A DNA stretch of 64,000 bases from Candidatus Micrarchaeaceae archaeon (GTDB lineage: Archaea; Micrarchaeota; Micrarchaeia; Micrarchaeales; Micrarchaeaceae). Under the pieces are notes generated by a model. That model ran no database searches. It had not been told where the DNA came from and was given only the letters and a program-made list of their open reading frames with translations. Numbering within the stretch: the first letter of the stretch is position 1; each line of letters opens with the position of its first letter. Positions 599 to 13,379 of this stretch are shown piece by piece. The stretch is taken from NCBI GenBank assembly GCA_027310825.1, contig DAIDAC010000005.1, positions 36,829 to 100,828 of the forward strand, read 5' to 3'. The position numbers and the translations under genes were made by a program.

Positions 599-1168
599 TT
601 AGGGTGCTGCCGGTTGCCTGTAGATCCTGATTGTGCATGGTGTGTATCCATATTGCTGTTTTATTTCGGACTTTTCTCCGAATACACCGTAACTTGGATC
701 CGCTATGTATGTTCTTCCGTCGACCACGACCTCTACCCATGTATGCAGCGCGTCTGGATCCGTGGTTGTCTGATTGGTGGAGCGCCCGCCGACAAAATAG
801 CCCACTATGCCCTTGGATTCTAGTATGACAAGAAGTGCTGCGGCCTTTTCTTTGCATTGGCCTTTCTTTGCGTGTATCGCTTTGCTTAGATTGACTACAT
901 GCTCTGTGATTTCGTAGTACCACTTTGGCTCCTTGCCAAGCTCCTCCTTTACGAACTCGTTGAACTTGCGAACCATCTCTGTGCCTGTGGACTCGCCTGC
1001 GTATTTCCGTGCCCGCATGATGAAGCTATGTATATCGGTGTTTGCAGGACTAGTTATCCTAAGAAGCGGATTGTTGCTGAGGAGAACGTCTCCTGTCCTG
1101 AGGATGATTCTCTCTGTTTCTACTACGCCGGAGTTTGCACGTGGATGGAACATTCTATCAGATTCCAT
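599..1168 (-). CDS. Transglutaminase-like cysteine protein
   Basis: The protein is about 189 residues. The C-terminal half has the ordered Cys-His-Asp triad of the transglutaminase/protease-like fold: Cys in KKGQCKEKA, His in ALHTWVEV and Asp in IADPSYG. Known members are peptidases, transglutaminases or peptide N-glycanases; the substrate here is unknown. There is no signal peptide or membrane segment, so it is probably cytoplasmic. A TATA-like element at 1179-1190 lies only about 18 bases before the first ATG (1168), so the in-frame ATG at 1153 may be the real, leaderless start. It stands alone between a convergent surface-protein gene and the unknown gene at 1202-1813. Confidence 0.65.
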   Translation of the reverse strand: MESDRMFHPRANSGVVETERIILRTGDVLLSNNPLLRITSPANTDIHSFIMRARKYAGESTGTEMVRKFNEFVKEELGKEPKWYYEITEHVVNLSKAIHAKKGQCKEKAAALLVILESKGIVGYFVGGRSTNQTTTDPDALHTWVEVVVDGRTYIADPSYGVFGEKSEIKQQYGYTPCTIRIYRQPAAP

Positions 1169-1832: not shown

Positions 1833-3932
1833 TTAAATGGCCTTCTCTTCTACAGGGGTGGCGATCGGCTTTGCAACCGGCTTTACAGTCGGTTGAGCTG
1901 TCGGTCCATACTTTGGCTTGAACACAGGGAAGTTTGCCACTGGCTTGCCTCCGTTGATTGGCATCGCAAAGTAGTCCTGCATGTCCGCGTATGTCTTCAA
2001 GAACAGAGGATCCTGCTCAAGCTTTTTCACATCGCGTATGTATTTGTCTGCGCGGTAGTTCCAGTTCGGGTTTACCTTTGCCCATTCCTTTGCAGGTATG
2101 CTGTACTGCTTCTGGATCTTGTCACGATAGACTTCTGGGAATACGTTGAATGTGCAGAACGGAAGCACTTGCCCGTCAGGCATTGCATAGTGGATGTCGC
2201 ACTTCTCTACGCGATGTATGTCGTAGGTGTGTTCATCCTGGAAGTGCATCATTCCTAGGAACAGCGACTTGCTGTGCAGTGCACCCATTGCATCGAAGTT
2301 GTTCTTTAGGAATATGTTTGTAAGCATCTTTCCGAAGTTGAGAGACTTTGGCTGCTTCTCTTTGTCTACGAGCTTTGGCAGGTTCATGAGCGCCTTCATT
2401 GCGATTGCCTTTCGTGTTAGTCTGCCCTTGCCCTGCATCTCGTCTACTGCCCTTTGCAGTGTTTCGACAAGTCCAGCTGCGTCTACGAAGTCGGTGATCG
2501 GGATTACTTCATTGTCGTCGTCGAGGAACAGGTATGTTGCTGCTCCACATGCGAAGTGTATCGACAAATCGTACTTGTATTCTCCTGTGAGCGCTTCTAT
2601 GAACTTGTTAATTCCGCCGACATACGGCACAGAGAACCAGTGTTCCTTTCTTATCTTGCCGTTTGTCTGCTGTTCGATGAGCTTTATTGCTCCGGGTATC
2701 GTGATCCTCTGCTTTTCTCTCAAGCGAGTCGGCATTCTTCCTACCAGAGACACTGGCTGGAAGTTGACTGCCCTGATCACGTCCATGTTGTTGAGTGCAA
2801 AGTCTATGAGCGCTCCCATCTCGTGCTCGTTTATTCCCCTTATTACAGTAGGAACAAGCACCACTCCGATTCCTGCTTCTCTGCAAGCATCGAGAGCGTG
2901 TGGAACTTCCCAATAGTTCTTCGGGTTTGTCCTTGGGCTTACTCCGTCGCAGCTCATGTAAAGGGTTCCGCATCCTGCGTCCTTTATCCCCTGAGCAAGC
3001 TTTCTGTCAAAGCCAAGGTTTATTCCTGTTGTGTTAAGTTGTATTTGGTCGAAGCCTGCCTTCTTCGCCCTTCTTATTACTTCGACTATCTCCGGGTGCA
3101 TTGTCGGCTCTCCTCCTGTTATCTGGAGCGCGTTCGCCGGAATAGGCTTTGCAGACTTTAGATTTCTGAATATCTTGTCAAGCTCGTCTACAGTCGGTTC
3201 GTAAATCGGCTCCCCTTCCTTTGCATAGAAGAAGCAGTACCAGCACGATAGGTGGCATCTGTTTGTGACTACAACGTTGGCAAGTCCAGTGTGCGTCTTG
3301 TGCCGCTCGCAGATTCCGCAGTCGAATGGGCAGTTCTGTCCCTGGCCAAGGTAGTTAGGGTTGTCGAGACCTCTTCCGAAGTAGTTGTACCTCTTCATCT
3401 TTGTGTACATGTCATAGTCTTCCCAGTATTTCTCGAGGTTCCACTTGTGTTCTGGGCAGAACTTTCTGATCATTACATTGTCTCCGTCTTTGTAAATAGT
3501 TCCCTGGATAATGAGCTTGCACTCCGGGCAAACCGTCATGGTCTGCTCGATTACAGGCATCTTTTCTATTTCTTCAATTGTTCTGTGATAAGGAGCAAAT
3601 ACAGGGTCTACAGCCAGGTTTGCGTTTGGATCGTCTTTTGTCTCTGGCCTTTTGCTGTTTACCTCTTCGAATGCCACAGTCTTCTGCGCAACCTTGCTTC
3701 CACAACCGCAGGATTCCTCTCTTTCGGCTGCGCCTTTTCCGCAGCCACATCCTTCGCTTGCCTTTCCGCCGCCGCAGCAGTCATCGTCGCCGCCAGCTGA
3801 GGCTCCTCCGCCGCATCCGCAGCCTCCGCCACCACAGCCGCACGAATCCTCTACTTCTAGAGATCCTTTCTCTGCGCTAGCTTGTCCTTTTGCTTCGTTA
3901 ATGCCACCAAAGTTGTGACTCTGACCTGTCAT
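1833..3932 (-). CDS. tes: Radical SAM tetraether lipid synthase (Tes/GDGT synthase family)
   Basis: Tes-family radical SAM enzymes join the phytanyl chains of two archaeol lipids to make macrocyclic and tetraether membrane lipids. The radical SAM CxxxCxxC is C226-C230-C233, with flanking auxiliary-cluster cysteines typical of the family: C135/C138, C159 and C201/C205/C208. ITGGEPTMHPE is the conserved GGE region. Residues 31-77 form an odd extension with many CGCG, CCGGG and SCGCGS units that the catalytic core does not need. The length is 699 residues. The start ATG at 3932 has a GGTG ribosome site and a TATA box near 3970-3981. It is probably co-transcribed with the unknown gene at 1202-1813. 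Confidence 0.85.
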   Translation of the reverse strand: MTGQSHNFGGINEAKGQASAEKGSLEVEDSCGCGGGGCGCGGGASAGGDDDCCGGGKASEGCGCGKGAAEREESCGCGSKVAQKTVAFEEVNSKRPETKDDPNANLAVDPVFAPYHRTIEEIEKMPVIEQTMTVCPECKLIIQGTIYKDGDNVMIRKFCPEHKWNLEKYWEDYDMYTKMKRYNYFGRGLDNPNYLGQGQNCPFDCGICERHKTHTGLANVVVTNRCHLSCWYCFFYAKEGEPIYEPTVDELDKIFRNLKSAKPIPANALQITGGEPTMHPEIVEVIRRAKKAGFDQIQLNTTGINLGFDRKLAQGIKDAGCGTLYMSCDGVSPRTNPKNYWEVPHALDACREAGIGVVLVPTVIRGINEHEMGALIDFALNNMDVIRAVNFQPVSLVGRMPTRLREKQRITIPGAIKLIEQQTNGKIRKEHWFSVPYVGGINKFIEALTGEYKYDLSIHFACGAATYLFLDDDNEVIPITDFVDAAGLVETLQRAVDEMQGKGRLTRKAIAMKALMNLPKLVDKEKQPKSLNFGKMLTNIFLKNNFDAMGALHSKSLFLGMMHFQDEHTYDIHRVEKCDIHYAMPDGQVLPFCTFNVFPEVYRDKIQKQYSIPAKEWAKVNPNWNYRADKYIRDVKKLEQDPLFLKTYADMQDYFAMPINGGKPVANFPVFKPKYGPTAQPTVKPVAKPIATPVEEKAI

Positions 3933-4098
3933 AATTACACCCTCTAATATCGATAAAAGGGGGTTCCGATGTATTTATATACTTTGGTGTGTTTCGCTTT
4001 ACTGGCAGTAAATTTCTGTTTTTCTTCGACGATAACCCAGTTATAGAAACAGGTTAATCTATAAATAATAGACGCAACATAAGCCGTATGGTGAAAGC
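3933..4098. promoter_or_regulatory. Divergent promoter region between tes and the 4099 gene
   Basis: This 166-base gap holds two back-to-back TATA boxes. On the minus strand, AGTATATAAATAC (about 3970-3981) sits about 40 bases before the tes start. On the plus strand, CTATAAATAATAG (about 4060-4071) sits about 35 bases before the ATG at 4099. A GGTGA ribosome site follows at 4090-4094. No RNA gene is apparent. Confidence 0.6.
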
Positions 4099-4476
4099 AT
4101 GGCAACACCGGCAGCAAGGACAAGAACACCAGTTAAGACAGGAACAATCGGAAACAGGAAGGTATCAGATGAGATTACCGACTTCATAAGGAATGGAAAG
4201 GGCCAGGAGTCATTCGCAAGGTTCGCTGGCGAGATGGCGAGCATAGCTAATGGAGGAGCCACGCAAGACAGATTAATCGCATTGAACTACACTATCGGAA
4301 TGCTTTTCGACTCCGATGTTCTAAGAAGAGGAAGGGCCGAGCAGCTTTTCAACGAAGCTGGCAGAAGAGTTCCTCCGCAGTACAGAGCAAGGTTCGACCA
4401 GATAACGACTCCTATAATAATGAGGAACAGGAATGCGCTGCAGCCGCCGCAGGTCCAGCAGATGCAGAGGCGCTAA
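4099..4476 (+). CDS. Small basic hypothetical protein
   Basis: A 125-residue, Arg/Ala/Gln-rich soluble protein with a disordered N-terminus (Thr/Pro/Arg repeats), a predicted helical middle (about residues 25-105) and a Pro/Gln tail ending in QQMQRR. I recognise no family. The start is well supported by a GGTGA site five bases upstream and a TATA box at about 4060. It lies 42 bases before the large repeat protein on the same strand, so it could be a partner, but a weak TATA-like ATATTTC near 4502 allows separate transcription of the downstream gene. Confidence 0.6.
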   Translation: MATPAARTRTPVKTGTIGNRKVSDEITDFIRNGKGQESFARFAGEMASIANGGATQDRLIALNYTIGMLFDSDVLRRGRAEQLFNEAGRRVPPQYRARFDQITTPIIMRNRNALQPPQVQQMQRR

Positions 4477-4518
4477 CAAATAAATACCAGTCCGGCAGAG
4501 CTTATATTTCGTGGAGCT

Positions 4519-7500
4519 ATGCCGCCAGAGAACACTGTGGATGGAGTTGTGCAGCAACAGGCTAGCCCCGCAGATAAACGTTCTGATCTCGGGGAGCGTC
4601 TTCTCAGAAAGGCACAGGAGCTTAGACAGGAAAGGCCTGCACCGCAGATAAGAAGAGGGAGAAGATGGACACAAGCTGACATAGAGGCTCTAGATGCACA
4701 AGTGTTTGAAGAAGCGATAGAAAAGATAAAAGAGTATCACCAAAGAACAGGCAAGGTACCAATACTTGGGCTGGATGCTCGTCAACTTGTTGGAGGGAAG
4801 TTATTGCACAGACTGAACGGGGGGCGATACAAAGGCCAAGGAGTCTTTGATTTTGATGACGTGCTTTTGAAGGCGGGCATAGAAACAGGTTCAAACCGCG
4901 AGAGGTGGGCTTGTAAAGAGGGTTTGGAAGAAGGAATCAGGATCGTACAGAAGTTTGCTGCGGAGCACCACAAAAATCCTCCTGGGAGGTGGGACGTACG
5001 AAAGCTCGGTCTTGGCAAATTGATTTCCTATATAGATGCTGGCTTCTTCGAGAATGATGGCGTAACAAGCCTGCCCGGCCTTGTCGCCCGGGCTCATCTG
5101 ATGGTAGGAAATATACCGCATGGAGAAGGCAAAGGATTTTGGTCGAGCATCGAAGGCTTTAACGAAGGCGTCAGGCAGATTAGAGAATTCGTAAAGACAC
5201 ACAGTGAACCGCCTTCGCGCACAACTATGCCGTGGATGAAAGTTTTCATCTCAAACCTTGATGCTCATGCTTACACCGGAATGGGGATAAGGAGCTACAA
5301 CGACCTGCTTAGATCGCTTGGCTTTAAGCCAGAAATGAAAAAGAAAGACTGGATTACAGATGAGGGTTTTGACGAGGCAGTAAGAAGAACCGTCTCTTTT
5401 TACAAACAGCAGGGATATCGACCATCAGAAAAGGAAGCGCGTGAGAAGTTGGAGATCGGCAGTTTCATCAGTGCAGTCTGCGGTGGTAGATTTTCGAAGA
5501 TAGGCGCCGGAACCTATGACGGATTTTTGGACTATGTCGACATGGTGTTCTGGAACAGCAACGATGGCTATGCAACTGCAAGCGATCGCATCAGGAATTT
5601 CAACATAATTAATAGGAGAGCGCCGACCGTAGAGGAATGTAATATTTCACTTGGACTAACGGAGTTCTTAGAGTTGCTTGACCACGGAGCGTTCAAGCAG
5701 AAAGGTGCAATGAATTTTGATGGATTCATCAAATCGCTGTATCTACCTAAGATAAAGATGGGCTTCTGGTCCAGCGATGCAGGGCTTGAAGAAGGCGTTA
5801 AGGCAATACAGAGGTTTGCTGCCAGAAATGGAAGGCCGCCAACGACCGGAGAAGCAGTCGGAGAACTCAAACTACAAGGTTTGCTTGCCGCAATCAGCAA
5901 AGGCAGGTTCGATGCGCTTGGGGTTACCTCTTTCACTCCGCTGATAAAACATGCGGGACTAGAACCGACTATGAAGCAGTGGCGGTACTGGGGCACAGAT
6001 GAAGGATACGAACGGGCTTGCAAAACGATACGAGACTTCCATAGGAAGAATGGTAGAGCTCCGTGGGTCACAGAACTCAGAGACGAGCTTGGACTTGGAA
6101 CTTTTGTGCTTTACCAGATTTGGAGCGGCGGGCTGAGGAGCAAAGGAATCACGAGCTATGCTGATTTGCTAAAGACGCTTGGTCTTCCGATTGCAAGAAT
6201 GCCATTGAGATTCTGGGAAACTGAACAAGGACTAAATGAAGCTGTCGCAAGAGTAAACAAATTCGATCAAGAAAAAGGGTACACGCCAACGATACAGGAG
6301 ACGCACCATGAACTGCAACTCGGAGGTTTCTTGAGAAACGTTTATCTCGGAAAATTCGCAAAGTACCACATAAAGAGCTACCCGGCATTCTTAACCTACG
6401 CCGGCCAGCCAATCTACAAGCAAAGCATGGGGCTGTGGAGAAGAAAAGAGGGATTGGTGAAGGGTGCAAAGCTCATCAAAGAGTTCTTTGATAAAAATCA
6501 GAGAGTGCCGACTGCAAAAGAGATACACAGCGTATTGCACATCGGCGCATTGCTGTCAAACATCTACTGGCTTAAACTGAAACGTTTCGGTGTGCTGAAT
6601 TACTTTGATCTTTTGAAATATGCCGGAGTACCTCTTCCTGAAAGAAATCCATTCTACACGACAAAGGAAGGTCTTGCTGAAGGAGTAAAGAAACTGCAGG
6701 AGTTCGATCGCCAACGTGGAAAACCTCCGCTAGAAAGGGAGGCGCGCGAACTGCTCAAGCTTGGGCCGCTCATTTCTGCTGTACAGAGAGGACTTTTCAA
6801 AGATCTTGGAGTCGGCAAATATTCACAACTGCTCCTTTATGGGGGAATGAGGGCAAAGCCAAAGCACAGAAACCATTGGGGAACAGATGCAGGTTTCGAC
6901 GAAGCCATAAAAAAGATGAAAGAATTTGCAGCTGCAAACGGCAGGCCGCCGCGCTTTGTGGAAATCCAGCATGAGCTGCATCTGTCCGGTTTTTCTAGGC
7001 ATCTCTACATGGGAACATTCAAGCAGAAAGGAGTGGAAAATTACAATGAGCTTTTGGCTTCACTCGGATACAAAGCAGGGATAGGAAAGAAAGGGGATTG
7101 GAAAACGAAGAAAGGTTTGGATAGAGGAGTCCAGATATTGAAGGAGTTCAAAGCAAAGAATGGGAGAGCGCCGTTCTGGGTTGAAGCTGCTGCACTTCCA
7201 GGAATCAATGCGTTGGTTTGCCAGATAAGAGAAGGCAACCATCAAGGATTAAAGAATTATCATGACCTGCTGAAGCTTGCCGGGCTTGCAGAGCCAGTAA
7301 GAGAAACTTGGCTCAGCGAATCAAGATTTAGGGCAGGAATAGAAAAAATCAGAGAGTTTAGCGTAAAGAATAATAGAGCTCCGAAGGGACACGAAATTGC
7401 GAAAGAGTTGAAGCTGGAAGGTTTGTTGAGAGCAGTGAACGCAGGTGCTTTCGCATCGGAAGGCATACACAACCTTGCAGATCTGGTCAGCTATTCTGGT

Positions 7501-8178
7501 GTGCTTCCTGTTGGCACGATGGGTTTTTGGAAAACAAGCAAAGCGTATGAAGAGGCTACAAGAAGAGTAAAAGAATTTGATCAGAAAAACCATAGACCGC
7601 CGACGCACGTGGAGGCGAAAAAGGAATTGGGGCTCGATAATTTTGTAAGATGGCTCCATGCCGGGGTATTCAAAGCAAGAGGAGTGACTGGATATACCAC
7701 ATTCCTGAAAAATATCGGGCTAGAGCCTGGTTACATAGGCCGTGGGTTCTGGTTGACTGAAGAAGGGCTAAATTACGGATTAGCGAAGGTCAGGGAGTTC
7801 ACCCAAAAGCAGGGCAGGCCGCCAAGGCACACCGAAGCTGGCGAAGAGCTCGGCCTCGGAGGACTGCTGAACCAAATAAAAGCAGGAGTATTCAAAGAAC
7901 AAAAAGTCACGAATTACCTGGAGTTCATACAAAAAGCGACAGGCATTGTGATAAATCATGGAAAATGGAGGACAGAGGTCGGATTGAAGGAAGGCGCGAT
8001 GAAGGTTGTTGACTTCATAAAAGAGAACCGGAGACCGCCAAATTCCAGGGAAATGCAGAAGGAAATAGGGCTAAGCGGATTGATGTTTAGTATAAGCCGG
8101 GGTGTGTTCCAAGCGCAAGGAGTAACTTCTCCCGCAGGATTTATAGAATACGCACAGCGTCTTTCTGAACAGAAATAA
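4519..8178 (+). CDS. Giant tandem-module protein of about 16 helical repeats, possibly nucleic-acid binding
   Basis: This 1219-residue soluble protein is almost entirely built from about 16 diverged copies of a roughly 72-residue module. Each begins with an aromatic pair (mostly F-W) and T-x-x-G-[LFY]. It continues with a helix ending in F-x-x-x-N-G-R-x-P, an E-x-x-x-x-L-x-L helix, a [LF]-L-x-x-I-x-x-G-x-F helix, G-V-x-x-Y, and a final L-L-x-x-A-G-L helix. The 'GRxPT...AGL' pattern recalls the homing-endonuclease-associated repeat (Pfam HNH_repeat), but these modules are longer and no nuclease domain is fused. A basic composition and a possible helix-turn-helix in each module suggest DNA or RNA binding; this is inference. 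The N-terminal 50 residues are charged and probably flexible. The start ATG has GGAG upstream. Confidence 0.75.
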   Translation: MPPENTVDGVVQQQASPADKRSDLGERLLRKAQELRQERPAPQIRRGRRWTQADIEALDAQVFEEAIEKIKEYHQRTGKVPILGLDARQLVGGKLLHRLNGGRYKGQGVFDFDDVLLKAGIETGSNRERWACKEGLEEGIRIVQKFAAEHHKNPPGRWDVRKLGLGKLISYIDAGFFENDGVTSLPGLVARAHLMVGNIPHGEGKGFWSSIEGFNEGVRQIREFVKTHSEPPSRTTMPWMKVFISNLDAHAYTGMGIRSYNDLLRSLGFKPEMKKKDWITDEGFDEAVRRTVSFYKQQGYRPSEKEAREKLEIGSFISAVCGGRFSKIGAGTYDGFLDYVDMVFWNSNDGYATASDRIRNFNIINRRAPTVEECNISLGLTEFLELLDHGAFKQKGAMNFDGFIKSLYLPKIKMGFWSSDAGLEEGVKAIQRFAARNGRPPTTGEAVGELKLQGLLAAISKGRFDALGVTSFTPLIKHAGLEPTMKQWRYWGTDEGYERACKTIRDFHRKNGRAPWVTELRDELGLGTFVLYQIWSGGLRSKGITSYADLLKTLGLPIARMPLRFWETEQGLNEAVARVNKFDQEKGYTPTIQETHHELQLGGFLRNVYLGKFAKYHIKSYPAFLTYAGQPIYKQSMGLWRRKEGLVKGAKLIKEFFDKNQRVPTAKEIHSVLHIGALLSNIYWLKLKRFGVLNYFDLLKYAGVPLPERNPFYTTKEGLAEGVKKLQEFDRQRGKPPLEREARELLKLGPLISAVQRGLFKDLGVGKYSQLLLYGGMRAKPKHRNHWGTDAGFDEAIKKMKEFAAANGRPPRFVEIQHELHLSGFSRHLYMGTFKQKGVENYNELLASLGYKAGIGKKGDWKTKKGLDRGVQILKEFKAKNGRAPFWVEAAALPGINALVCQIREGNHQGLKNYHDLLKLAGLAEPVRETWLSESRFRAGIEKIREFSVKNNRAPKGHEIAKELKLEGLLRAVNAGAFASEGIHNLADLVSYSGVLPVGTMGFWKTSKAYEEATRRVKEFDQKNHRPPTHVEAKKELGLDNFVRWLHAGVFKARGVTGYTTFLKNIGLEPGYIGRGFWLTEEGLNYGLAKVREFTQKQGRPPRHTEAGEELGLGGLLNQIKAGVFKEQKVTNYLEFIQKATGIVINHGKWRTEVGLKEGAMKVVDFIKENRRPPNSREMQKEIGLSGLMFSISRGVFQAQGVTSPAGFIEYAQRLSEQK
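4690..8163 (+). repeat. Sixteen tandem coding repeats of about 216 bp
   Basis: The aromatic anchor of each module falls at residues 130, 208, 278, 345, 417, 491, 566, 640, 712 (Tyr), 787, 861, 931, 1004, 1078 and 1150, preceded by a degenerate first copy around residues 58-128. Spacing is 67-78 residues, mostly 72-75. The copies share about a dozen positions but have diverged strongly elsewhere, so this is an old protein-level repeat, not a recent DNA duplication. Confidence 0.85.
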
Positions 8179-8180
8179 AA

Positions 8181-9128
8181 TTATCTTTCCCTTCTGCCCC
8201 CGGGTCTTCTTGGCCCTCGGTTTTGCCTGTTGAAGTGGCCTTGCCTTCCGCCCTCTTTTCTCTGCCCTTCTGGCCTTTGCGGTTGCTTAGGCCTGTTCGC
8301 CTTTGGATTCTTCGCCTCTTCGGTCTTTATCCTTTCGATTATCGCATCGAGTTGGTACTTGAGGGTTTTTCCGATGTCGTTCTTTGTGTAATAGTCGGCC
8401 TTGAGCGCTATGCATATCTTTGTTGCATATGCTCGCGCGACTTTTCCCCTTATGTCCCTCTGAAGCGTGTTGATTGCAGGTAGCTTGAATAGCACTCCGT
8501 ATTTTGGAGGGTTGCTTCCGAACTTCAGGTGCTTGAAAAGCGACTTCTCTGCCCCCAGAAGCTGGACTGTGCTTGCAGGCATTGTTGCAAACCTTTCCAT
8601 AGAGCCTGCCTTGCTTAGCATCTCTGCCGCAATCTTCGGCTCGGTTAGGAAGGTGACATTTGGAAGTATCTTGTTCGATGCTTTGCCGATGTAGTCTTCA
8701 AGCGAGTCGAGCGTTTCCTTCATCGCTTGGCTCATCTCTGCAAACGATATAACTGCCTCTTTCTCGTCTGCGTTCGGCTTTCTTCCGATCGTTGACTTTG
8801 CCTTTTCGTAAATCTGCTTTGCCTTTGTTTCATCCTTCACCGCTTCGAATACCAAATCGTATGAGAGCGTGTCCGAGTTTACTGCCAACGCGAGCGCAGC
8901 CAGTGTAGAAGCGCTTGAAACCCTTATTTCCGGGAAATAGATCCCATACCATTCCGTTAGCCGTTCGTAAACGAGGTTGTATGATTTTTCTGTCTCCAGA
9001 TAAGCGTTTATCGACTGAATCAGCGCATACTCTTCGCTAGAGTAGGCCTCCTTTATTCCGGCCTTTGCGCTGGCGAGCATCTTCTCTCTAAGTTCTTCGA
9101 ACGGGTTTCTCTTCAAGAAATCACACAA
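8181..9128 (-). CDS. nop5: Nop5/Nop56-58 family C/D-box RNP core protein
   Basis: Nop5 bridges L7Ae-bound C/D guide RNA and fibrillarin in 2'-O-methylation particles for rRNA and tRNA. The NOP domain signature is clear in the second half (GSMERFATMPASTVQLLGAE, then KYGVLFKLP). A coiled-coil region precedes it, and the last 40 residues are a typical Arg/Gly/Gln-rich tail. The apparent start is TTG at 9128, about 30 bases after a TATA-like CCTATAAAAAC at 9156-9166; no in-frame ATG lies nearby. The fibrillarin gene, often adjacent in archaea, is not in this window. L7Ae is at 54120-54602. Confidence 0.85.
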   Translation of the reverse strand: MCDFLKRNPFEELREKMLASAKAGIKEAYSSEEYALIQSINAYLETEKSYNLVYERLTEWYGIYFPEIRVSSASTLAALALAVNSDTLSYDLVFEAVKDETKAKQIYEKAKSTIGRKPNADEKEAVISFAEMSQAMKETLDSLEDYIGKASNKILPNVTFLTEPKIAAEMLSKAGSMERFATMPASTVQLLGAEKSLFKHLKFGSNPPKYGVLFKLPAINTLQRDIRGKVARAYATKICIALKADYYTKNDIGKTLKYQLDAIIERIKTEEAKNPKANRPKQPQRPEGQRKEGGRQGHFNRQNRGPRRPGGRRER

Positions 9129-9157
9129 AGAGTACTACTACTCTGCTTTATCTGTTT

Positions 9158-10261
9158 TTATAGGTTTCTGACCTCTGCTTTCGGCGCGTTCACCGGCCTC
9201 AGATGATCGATGTCTATCAAGGAATCGCTCTCCGCTAGAAGACGTGGGCCTGATCCTTGCCCTGAAACTATTACTCTATTGCCATTCAGTATGTCCTTGA
9301 TTGCAGAGAACACTTTGTCCTTGTAGTGACGAGTGGTTATTATGTGCGGGTTTGGCCCTGCATCGAAAGTGTAAGCAGCTATGTTTGTGCCCATGCTGTC
9401 GTTGAGTCCGTGGATTGCTTCGATGACTGCCTTTGATCTGTCGTTGAGATACATGATTGGCGGATACGATTCCATGCAAATCGCATGAAGACGATTGCTG
9501 TCCTTCATCGTTATCTCTGCAAGCGTGTTGAAATCCTTCTCGTTTATCGCCTTGATTGCACGGAATGTCCGCTCCTCGGCTATGTATGGGCTGATTGCGA
9601 AGTGTTCGCTTGTTCTGACTGTCCTTTTGTGGCCCTCCGTCGTCGGGACCCGTTTCTTTTTCTCGGATATCAATGCAACTATGTCGATTATTTCTGGCCA
9701 GTGATTCTCATTTGCTACCTGCACCGCGATTGAATCGCTTCCGTCCTTCGCCCCTCCCTTTTCCCATGCTACAAATCCTCCAAAAAGGCTTCTGCACCCG
9801 CTGCCGCTGACTCTTCTTGCTATTATAGACATCTCCTTTTGCGTTAAAGTGAGACCAAACGCCTTTGAAAGCGCCACCGACAATGCAGCCGCACCTGCAG
9901 CGCTCGCCGCCAACCCGGTTCCAGACGGAAAAGAGTTCTCTGACACTATTAGCACATTGGCGTCTGTGCCGGACATCTCTCTAAGAAGAGCGAGGGCCTT
10001 GCCAACAAAAGCCACCTTTTCCTCTTTCGGATTCCTGAAATCCTCTCGAACTCCGTCTATGTAGAGTATGTCTTTGCTAATGCGATCGCTTAGCAGTACG
10101 CTTGTCCTTGTTCCGACTTGCTCGTCTAGCGTGATGCTGATTGAAGAGTTTGTAGGAAGGTTTATGCTCTCGTCGCTCTTGCCCCAATACTTTGTCAAAG
10201 CTATGTTCGAAGTTGCCATCGCAGTAGTTACCTCGTCGTAAGCCATGTTGCTGGCGCCCAT
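9158..10261 (-). CDS. mvaD: Diphosphomevalonate decarboxylase family (mevalonate pathway)
   Basis: This GHMP-fold enzyme makes isopentenyl units by ATP-dependent decarboxylation of mevalonate diphosphate. The N-terminal motif around ALTKYWGK, the LPTNSSISITL segment, the glycine-rich phosphate loop near SGTGLAASAAGAAAL and the catalytic Asp in AYTFDAGPNP match classical MvaD. Some archaea use related decarboxylases acting on other mevalonate phosphates, so substrate specificity is not proven. An upstream in-frame ATG at 10321 lies before the TATA box (10295-10305). The ATG at 10261, preceded by GGTGGGG, is therefore the likely start (367 residues). It complements the prenyl synthase at 48312-49220 and Tes in lipid synthesis. 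Confidence 0.88.
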   Translation of the reverse strand: MGASNMAYDEVTTAMATSNIALTKYWGKSDESINLPTNSSISITLDEQVGTRTSVLLSDRISKDILYIDGVREDFRNPKEEKVAFVGKALALLREMSGTDANVLIVSENSFPSGTGLAASAAGAAALSVALSKAFGLTLTQKEMSIIARRVSGSGCRSLFGGFVAWEKGGAKDGSDSIAVQVANENHWPEIIDIVALISEKKKRVPTTEGHKRTVRTSEHFAISPYIAEERTFRAIKAINEKDFNTLAEITMKDSNRLHAICMESYPPIMYLNDRSKAVIEAIHGLNDSMGTNIAAYTFDAGPNPHIITTRHYKDKVFSAIKDILNGNRVIVSGQGSGPRLLAESDSLIDIDHLRPVNAPKAEVRNL

Positions 10262-11838: not shown

Positions 11839-11906
11839 GAATGTCAATGGATTGAAAGGTATAATAATCCTACAATTCTAAGTCATCTCGACAATCAGTG
11901 CGGATT
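11839..11906. promoter_or_regulatory. Compact bidirectional promoter
   Basis: The single AT-rich element GGTATAATAATCC at about 11857-11869 is the only TATA-like sequence between the carboxypeptidase and glyS. It lies 25 bases from the first and about 40 from the second, so it may serve both directions. Confidence 0.45.
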
Positions 11907-13379
11907 ATGAATATAGATGACATGCTCGCCTTTGCAAAAGCGAAGGGCTTTTTCTGGCAGAGCGCGGAGATATATGGAAGTGCGGCTGGCCTCTTTGAGT
12001 ACGGTCACCTCGGAGCACTTCTGAAACGCAGGTTCGAAGCAGTATGGCTTAACTACTTCGTAGATAGCGGAGAGGATTACTACCTGATTGAAGGGGCAAC
12101 CATGATGCCCGAGAAGCCGCTTGTCGCCTCTGGCCATGCCTCACGCTTCAACGACATACTCGTAGGTTGTTCGAAGTGCCATACCTATTATAGAGCAGAT
12201 GTCCTTCTCGCTGAGAACAAAGTTACTGTTTCTGAAGGTGCCAACGCCGCAGAGATGGATGAAGCGATAAAGAAGAACAATGTCAAGTGCCCGAAGGACA
12301 AAGGAACTCTTCTTCCTGCAAAGTCGTTCAACATGATGATCGATGTAAGCCTCGGGCCAGAGAAAGCAGACACGGGTTACCTGAGACCCGAGACTGCACA
12401 GAGCGCTTATCTCAACTTCTTCAGGCAGTTCAACATATTGAGAAAGAAGCTCCCTCTCGGTCTCGCCGTTATCGGCAAGGCCTACCGGAATGAGATATCG
12501 CCGCGGCAAGGTCTCTACAGGATGAGAGAGCTGACGCAGGCAGAACTGCAGCTCTTCTTCGATCCAGAGAATTGGAAGCTTGACCTCAACACCGTTACAA
12601 AGAAGAAAATGACTGTGGTTCCGTATCAAACGAAGGAGGCAGAGCAGCTAACTCCAATCGAGGTGGTGGCGAAGTACAAGATTCCAGAGTTCTACGCCTA
12701 CCACATGGGGCTGATATACCAATTCTACACAGAAGTTCTGAAGATTCCACACGAAAAGCTGCGCTTCCTCGAAAAGGGCGGCGACGAAAAGGCTTTCTAT
12801 AACAAGGTCCACATGGACATAGAGGTAGACGTCGAAAGCTGGGGCGGCTTCAAGGAAGTCGGCGGCCTCCATTACAGAGGCGATTACGACCTCACCTGCC
12901 ACAGCAAAGGATCAAACCAGGATCTGTCTGTCAACATCGACGGCAAAAAGGTGATGCCGAACGTGCTTGAACTCAGCTTCGGCGTAGACAGGAATGTCTG
13001 GATGCTGCTCGACATATTCTACAAAAAGGAGCAGGAGCGAAGCGTGCTTAAGCTTCCGCTTGCGCTTGCTCCATACCAAGTTGCCGTTTTCCCGCTCCAG
13101 AAAGACGCTACAATAGAAAAGGAGTCAGAGTCGCTTTACAAACTTCTCAAAAAAAACTTCAAGACAGACTTCGACTCCTCCGGCTCAATCGGCAGAAGGT
13201 ATGCGAGGATGGACGAGATAGGAACTCCATTCTGCATTACTGTTGACTATGAAACAGTAGACAGCAAAGCCAAAGGATATGGCTCTGTAACAATCAGAAA
13301 AAGGGACGACAAAACGCAAGAGAGAATCAAAGTAGATGACGTTGTCGAGTACTTTAGCAAGGCATACGGGGTTGTATGA
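11907..13379 (+). CDS. glyS: Glycyl-tRNA synthetase (single-chain class II)
   Basis: This enzyme charges tRNA-Gly. The N-terminus (KGFFWQSAEIYG, then GLFEYGHLGALLKRRFE) is class II motif 1 of the eukaryotic/archaeal glycine enzyme. Motif 2 follows in KAYRNEISPRQGLYRMRE, with RPETAQ upstream. Motif 3 lies near SFGVDRNVW. The anticodon-binding domain occupies the last 110 residues. At about 490 residues it is compact compared with about 570 in many archaea. GTG at 11898 is a possible earlier start. Its stop overlaps the ATG of the DNA glycosylase by four bases (ATGA), which implies translational coupling. Confidence 0.95.
   Translation: MNIDDMLAFAKAKGFFWQSAEIYGSAAGLFEYGHLGALLKRRFEAVWLNYFVDSGEDYYLIEGATMMPEKPLVASGHASRFNDILVGCSKCHTYYRADVLLAENKVTVSEGANAAEMDEAIKKNNVKCPKDKGTLLPAKSFNMMIDVSLGPEKADTGYLRPETAQSAYLNFFRQFNILRKKLPLGLAVIGKAYRNEISPRQGLYRMRELTQAELQLFFDPENWKLDLNTVTKKKMTVVPYQTKEAEQLTPIEVVAKYKIPEFYAYHMGLIYQFYTEVLKIPHEKLRFLEKGGDEKAFYNKVHMDIEVDVESWGGFKEVGGLHYRGDYDLTCHSKGSNQDLSVNIDGKKVMPNVLELSFGVDRNVWMLLDIFYKKEQERSVLKLPLALAPYQVAVFPLQKDATIEKESESLYKLLKKNFKTDFDSSGSIGRRYARMDEIGTPFCITVDYETVDSKAKGYGSVTIRKRDDKTQERIKVDDVVEYFSKAYGVV

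Follow-up and report, generated by a model that had tools for sequence, protein, structure and literature searches.

The 64,000-nucleotide stretch of Candidatus Micrarchaeaceae archaeon DNA analyzed here, referred to below as the window, contains an open reading frame (ORF) on the forward strand, positions 4519-8178, whose product is built of sixteen tandem modules. Sequence profiles and structure prediction suggest that this protein is an array of helix-turn-helix (HTH) units that binds DNA and is probably sequence-specific for double-stranded DNA, a reading to which we assign a probability of roughly 0.6. The reading draws on the repeat architecture of the protein, on the predicted fold of its modules and on the pattern of constant and variable positions in related, shorter arrays encoded on Bacillus plasmids.

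Module architecture and predicted fold

The array gene and its parts, all on the forward strand, are as follows.

4519-8178, forward: array ORF, 1219 residues; 16 modules, no other recognised domain
4519-4692, forward: N-terminal extension, residues 1-58; not hydrophobic, no stretch resembling a signal peptide or transmembrane (TM) segment
4693-4881, forward: module 1, from iterative hidden Markov models (HMMs); no aromatic start
4906-5100, forward: module 2, iterative HMM
5140-5325, forward: module 3, iterative HMM
5350-5544, forward: module 4, iterative HMM
5551-5745, forward: module 5, iterative HMM
5767-5961, forward: module 6, iterative HMM and AlphaFold2 model; helices H1 4-21, H2 27-32, H3 37-44, H4 56-62
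5989-6186, forward: module 7, iterative HMM and AlphaFold2 model
6214-6405, forward: module 8, iterative HMM and AlphaFold2 model
6436-6630, forward: module 9, iterative HMM and AlphaFold2 model
6655-6849, forward: module 10, iterative HMM
6877-7071, forward: module 11, iterative HMM
7099-7287, forward: module 12, iterative HMM
7309-7503, forward: module 13, iterative HMM
7528-7722, forward: module 14, iterative HMM
7750-7941, forward: module 15, iterative HMM
7966-8157, forward: module 16, iterative HMM

The open frame was confirmed over its full extent and lies entirely within the window. Iterative HMMs located exactly 16 diverged modules spanning residues 59-1213, with a start-to-start spacing of 67-78 residues for modules 2-16 (mean 72.9), in agreement with the roughly 16 modules of about 72 residues described in a first-pass annotation. 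An HMM built from the modules of a paralogue alone, encoded on contig C9 of the same genome, detects 16/16 window modules with independent E-values below 1e-3, and the module count is therefore independent of the window protein's own profile. The protein scores 546.5 bits against this HMM, and the best of 200 shuffled sequences reaches 3.1 bits. Pairwise identity among the modules averages 29% (range 14-44%). The motif plan outlined earlier is real as a set of majority features: an aromatic start in 15/16 modules, the R.P turn, E29 (module position), G46, G52 and a closing L..AG. Across 43 modules the sole invariant column is P25, and F17 is almost invariant. The richness in Lys and Arg noted earlier is likewise found (190 Lys+Arg versus 140 Asp+Glu, pI 9.7), and within a module net positive charge is located at the GRxP turn and in the loop that follows helix 3.

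Modules 6-9 were modeled with AlphaFold2. Each of the four folds into a confidently predicted four-helix unit (predicted local distance difference test score 87.5) in the order H1-H2-turn-H3-H4, with an HTH as the first-pass annotation had proposed for every module, and the predicted fold of a single module may resemble the HTH regions of TetR, LexA and sigma-70 region 3.

These features suggest how the protein might work. Each four-helix module would contribute one recognition helix along a long double-stranded DNA target, with DNA rather than RNA as the probable ligand. Helices 2 and 3 may make the base contacts, their residues may set the choice of target, as the scaffold/variable split of the short-form relatives suggests, and the modules would act in register. 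The linkers would confer flexibility of the kind seen in zinc-finger or Myb arrays, not the rigidity of a TALE superhelix. Because no catalytic domain accompanies the modules, the protein would serve as a binder, acting as a regulator, a roadblock or an anchor.

Relationship to HNH_repeat and the short-form arrays of Bacillus plasmids

The first-pass annotation had pointed to the Pfam family HNH_repeat (PF18780), and profile comparison bears out this kinship. The window protein scores 33.2 bits against the Pfam model (cut-off 26) as a sum of partial matches, none of which passes the cut-off alone, and the 107.8 bits of the 2128-residue C9 paralogue are likewise summed; a genome-wide six-frame search with the same model does not list the window array. 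A phylum HNH_repeat profile, assembled from 15 matches found within the phylum (9 exceed the cut-off), was compared with 52 long modules. The hhalign comparison gave 94.7% probability with module positions 8-65 aligned, and a score of 34.5 as against 12.6 or less in 60 controls with permuted HNH_repeat columns; the long form carries 6 extra residues around helix 3. Local comparison of the long modules with Bacillus modules gave 91.7%, the long form being 13 residues longer in the same region. Both types share helix 1, the G-R-x-P-T turn, the Glu of helix 2, the closing helix S-Y/W/F-N..L..AG-L and the arrangement in tandem. They differ in length, 65 residues (73 with the linker) in the window versus 48-54 positions of the HNH_repeat model, and in the segment before the last helix, where the HNH_repeat unit of about 50 residues has an FGSW-type motif and the window unit one of the type G-[IV]-x-S-Y-N. 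Judged by these profiles, the window module is a long-form relative of HNH_repeat and not a canonical member, because local homology is good, global homology to Bacillus modules is weak and extra residues surround helix 3. The window protein contains no nuclease domain; association with a homing nuclease is not a strict family feature, since the Bacillus arrays are also without one. HNH_repeat is tabulated among repeat families without known structure in a table of PMC8078820. The searched open literature, which mostly does not cover subscription papers and preprints, yielded no description of an HNH_repeat function, and an earlier description is possible.

Two other Pfam labels, the pseudomurein-binding repeat (PMBR, PF09373) and LexA, were rejected because the best matches to both fall on one and the same part of the module, helix 1 with its R.P turn. 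Proteins with PMBRs are secreted and bind the cell wall. A repeat that binds protein or cell wall, such as a PMBR relative or a scaffold, would account for the whole-protein PMBR score of 31.5 bits (cut-off 24.9) and for the top PDB sequence match, a pseudomurein endoisopeptidase (E 3.5e-4). However, of the 33 PMBR positions the best stretch takes in 8-28, and the PDB match is confined to module positions 5-27, so that the likeness is limited to helix 1 and the NGR.P turn; a three-module protein of the same genome reaches PF09373 positions 4-30 of 33 in one stretch. Moreover, relatives carry the module fused to intracellular nucleic-acid domains, and Kyte-Doolittle analysis, without a dedicated signal-peptide program, found no hydrophobic N-terminus or TM-like stretch in the window protein. 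We regard wall binding as very improbable.

The Bacillus arrays were reached by a tblastn search of plasmids with the paralogue. Two of the proteins, of 824 and 872 residues, are composed of linkers and HNH_repeats, with scores of 733 and 789 bits over 14 and 15 stretches, and the array genes adjoin an annotated integrase and an HTH gene (HTH_17 in the one tested). Like the window array, the Bacillus arrays P0004, P0005 and P0008 are basic and comprise 14-17 modules with a predicted four-helix unit and no catalytic domain found. Unlike it, they are of the short form, adjoin the integrase and HTH gene, and have modules that are 76% identical outside nine positions.

These nine positions (20, 23, 24, 29, 30, 31, 33, 34 and 35) were chosen from an entropy table of 104 distinct Bacillus modules from 11 proteins. 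Every one of the seven columns above 2 bits is among them; the remaining 39 columns comprise 26 below 1 bit and 13 at 1-2 bits, with columns 3, 5 and 8, at 1.9 bits, exceeding position 34 (1.5). On the Bacillus model, position 20 precedes the proline within the turn, 23 and 24 belong to H2 and the others are on H3. Codons were compared in 37 distinct modules of four genes. Framework codons differ more often by synonymous-only than by nonsynonymous change (0.364 versus 0.222; exceptions include 3, 5, 8 and 41), whereas codons of the nine positions show mostly replacement (0.122 versus 0.737). Among modules 1-5, positional orthologues (10 proteins, 62 distinct pairs) share 90% identity over the nine positions and 93% over the rest. 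The corresponding figures for pairs of modules from a single array (1013 pairs) are 23% and 76%; the few paralogue pairs whose frameworks are equally similar (6) are 44% identical at the nine positions. Two modules of the ten Bacillus arrays did not align gap-free and were dropped, and the averages exclude the proteins P0023 and P0024. Fixed from Bacillus, the nine positions form the more variable set in 15/15 other arrays (p 2e-5 to 0.013), which were hand-picked, are in some cases mutually related and include one of five modules only; positions 22, 27, 40, 41 and 44 likewise vary frequently in these arrays. The split between scaffold and variable positions in the Bacillus arrays is a signature of the TALE type. 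Similarity in principle to TALE arrays, suggested earlier for the window protein, gains support mainly through its short-form relatives, and positions that vary between modules while staying fixed between orthologues are clearly found in the Bacillus relatives, the one set with orthologues to compare. On four Bacillus plasmids (L085, L087, L088 and L093) the first modules are common and the arrays then diverge, apparently by exchange and duplication of modules. In L085 two neighboring ORFs, 5737-8211 and 8390-9424, divide the modules between them.

For the window array the signature amounts to a weak, consistent trend and not to proof. Exposed positions of H2 and H3 are more variable than those of H1 and H4 (p 0.0017 in the window protein and 0.005 in the paralogue), the sets having been picked after the entropy table was known. 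Entropy over 39 alignable columns correlates with that of Bacillus (rho 0.52, p 0.0007 for the window; rho 0.39, p 0.014 for the paralogue). The proposal that the third helix varies most holds only in part: helices 2 and 3 surpass helices 1 and 4 in the variability of their exposed positions, yet positions 2, 18, 50, 51 and 57 of the module are equally variable.

Several observations weigh against sequence-specific DNA binding by the window array. Helix 3 itself carries little positive charge, and the Pfam scan of the window protein found no nuclease, helicase or other effector. The rigid superhelix expected at first is not borne out: the predicted template modeling score (pTM) is 0.52 for the four window modules and, in the model of nine short Bacillus modules, 0.24. 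The top structural matches by Z score are DsrC-like proteins (5.5; tied first at 4.4 in a second comparison), which do not bind DNA, and a ribosomal protein, presumably uS15, is also among the matches. Foldseek found no PDB match to the window model with E below 1; with the nine-module Bacillus model it returned mostly unrelated helical proteins. Global profile comparison of the long modules with Bacillus modules gave 35.9%. The nine Bacillus positions carried over to the window gave p 0.10 and 0.06 under two mappings, and 0.12 and 0.022 for the paralogue, the mapping across the long-form insertion being itself uncertain. Finally, the literature searched yielded no binding experiment on an HNH_repeat array.

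The company kept by the short form was surveyed among 120 listed homologues of a Bacillus array (of 203, query included), with precomputed labels that may be spurious on repeats. By hand count, 34 are helicase-labelled (PF00271 or PF04851), 9 carry PF14528, which we take to be LAGLIDADG_3, and 3 carry PF01844 (HNH); a haloarchaeal plasmid protein, P0006, combines six HNH_repeats with an HNH domain. As far as these labels indicate, the short-form company is DNA-side, that is, nucleases and helicases. This bears on the alternative that the modules bind RNA, single-stranded or structured, and read it as PPR or PUF arrays do. We consider a modular RNA binder unlikely, since the company of the module family is mostly homing-type nucleases, superfamily 2 (SF2) helicases and HTH domains, and since the Nop-domain gene next to the array is an ancestral neighbor of the insertion site and not of the array. 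PPR, PUF and mTERF are not among the Pfam matches listed, although a missing match is no proof.

Relatives, distribution and insertion site

The genome assembly (0.98 Mb in 15 contigs, 91.6% complete) encodes further arrays. The paralogue on contig C9 (L012) has 2128 residues and 17 modules plus a partial 18th, flanked by HTH-like repeats on the N-terminal side and a methyltransferase domain on the C-terminal side. The same genome also encodes a 267-residue three-module protein and a degenerate five-module array (L013:11442-12668). An orthologue of the window protein in another species was not found in 60 genomes or in a database search that scored the 7994 candidates sharing most words. A database relative of the 2128-residue protein, P0002, differs from it in two respects only: the start chosen is another, and 78 consecutive residues, which amount to one module, are missing; there are zero substitutions. 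A perfect 32-base direct repeat is common to both modules adjoining the deletion junction (L012:6528-12914), and the loss reflects either inter-module recombination or assembly collapse.

In the phylum, the module occurs in 13/295 genomes, own included, at E <= 0.001, four of which rest only on matches between 1e-5 and 1e-3; in the order it occurs in 10/164 genomes, own included, at E <= 1e-5. The searched loci hold 77 module hits in 20 open frames, a count that includes a sigma-70-like protein (L028). Nine of the 20 frames were scanned with Pfam for partner domains. Over the cut-offs are HTH_38 five times beside one module in L051, ResIII and Helicase_C in L052 and Methyltransf_11 in L012; HTH_23 in L012 and an AAA match in L014 fall below, and the other four scanned relatives have no such partner domain over the cut-off.

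Some relatives deserve mention in their own right. L052:2458-4617 is an SF2 helicase with HNH_repeat-type modules within the phylum, and by source names the same combination occurs in Saccharibacteria and other Patescibacteria. L028 (G072:C23) was rejected as an array member, its module hit of 26.7 bits being taken as likeness to sigma region 3. Its frame, 1084-1953, encodes a bacterial-type sigma-70 family protein in a genome of the Micrarchaeota phylum. Among NCBIfam models, RpoS (97 bits) and MzaA (86.6 bits) are both far below their cut-offs and the sigma70-ECF superfamily model is over its own; the gene could be of phage origin or lie on a contaminating contig. In L071 (G165:C54), 304-2667 on the reverse strand, a 572-residue HNH_repeat protein is directly followed by a 215-residue ORF that is sigma-factor-like by eye.

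The surroundings of the array gene in the window are as follows.

1833-3932, reverse: conserved radical-SAM-like protein, type judged by eye; left flank of the insertion
4099-4476, forward: 125-residue orphan ORF, very basic (pI 11.4), 42 bases upstream of the array gene and co-oriented
8181-9128, reverse: conserved Nop-domain protein (snoRNA-binding type); right flank of the insertion
11898-13379: ORF, glycyl-tRNA synthetase by eye; 31 matching loci in genome_contigs, identity 60-74%

The Nop-domain and radical-SAM-like genes are each present in 30/31 genomes examined, own included, counting a weak radical-SAM-like match (1.2e-6) in G013. By hand count from the match tables, the two lie on one contig and at most 5 kb apart in 18/30 relatives; outside these, the pair is split by a contig end in G007 and 5.4 kb apart in G014, and the others have the genes on different contigs or are without one. 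In the window genome a 4.25-kb stretch with the 125-residue ORF and the array separates them. The gap, window 3933-8180, holds different ORFs in each of four relatives (G016, G012, G009 and G008) and looks like a recurrent insertion site. Among 60 neighborhood genomes, own included, a full-length relative of the array protein is absent and any match occurs in 4/60; the 125-residue ORF, a possible operon partner of the array gene, matches only itself (1/60). Because the flanks are conserved and adjacent in relatives, the gap content differs and full-length relatives of the array are lacking, the array is, from this gene-order comparison, an accessory insertion at a variable site between two conserved genes. 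The GC content at third codon positions is 0.477 in the array gene and 0.573-0.609 in three other window genes. Rfam at the gathering threshold found no match in the window. Two transglutaminase-like ORFs (by eye), at window 599-1168 and L012:1355-2251, both on the reverse strand, each lie a few kb from a long-form array.

Patchy distribution over the phylum might also point to a remnant of a homing element, its targeting part, derelict or deprived of the nuclease and now without a target-reading function. The family is named for homing endonucleases, P0006 joins HNH_repeats to an HNH domain, and the own genome contains a degenerate array. Nonetheless, sixteen intact modules in frame, together with two further intact arrays in that genome, speak against this origin. 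The Bacillus arrays, moreover, keep the order of their first five modules, and since ordered nuclease-free arrays exist there, the nuclease-free state is normal. A homing relic is thus quite improbable. Phage origin was rejected: no match to the window or C9 array was found in 50,697 phage records, and three scans of viral_contigs gave no relative; short arrays of the Bacillus type do occur in four phage records. A role in anti-phage defence was likewise set aside, neither the window protein nor the C9 protein having a PADLOC match.

Comparison with known modular DNA binders

Reading of long DNA by tandem modules is known from few classes of protein, and these classes form a basis of genome engineering. 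A wider proposal, which we hold tentatively and place somewhat short of even odds, is that HNH_repeat arrays are unrecognised modular, sequence-addressed DNA binders with one TetR/LexA-like HTH per module and the H2/H3 residues as the code, and that the long form of the Micrarchaeota, which in a single 1-Mb genome runs to 16 and 17 modules, would be directed to targets tens of base pairs long. Should the variable positions of H2 and H3 prove to be a code, the Bacillus arrays offer a direct test of it, and the archaeal version would indicate how far such an array design can be extended. Nucleic-acid roles would then follow for many "hypothetical" proteins on plasmids, in archaea and in bacteria of the candidate phyla radiation.

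Among the known systems, NUMODs are the nuclease-associated modular DNA-binding domains of homing nucleases, short motifs that lie beside the nuclease; the window array shares with them the idea of modular DNA binding, a likeness of description and not of sequence. The TALE unit, of about 34 residues, comprises two helices plus a loop, and the loop reads one base through a two-residue code at positions 12-13. Unlike the units of TALE and STAR proteins, the window unit has four helices and 65-73 residues, and no rigid superhelix is predicted. A systematic screen of DNA-binding tandem repeat proteins reports STAR, MOON, pTERF, NORD and MIRAGE (PMC11417379); its main text makes no mention of homing, HNH, helix-turn-helix or PF18780, a statement that does not extend to its 100 screened candidates. 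What the HNH_repeat arrays appear to have in common with TALE and with STAR as described in that screen is the combination of tandem modules, a constant scaffold and variable recognition residues, the last seen in the short-form relatives.

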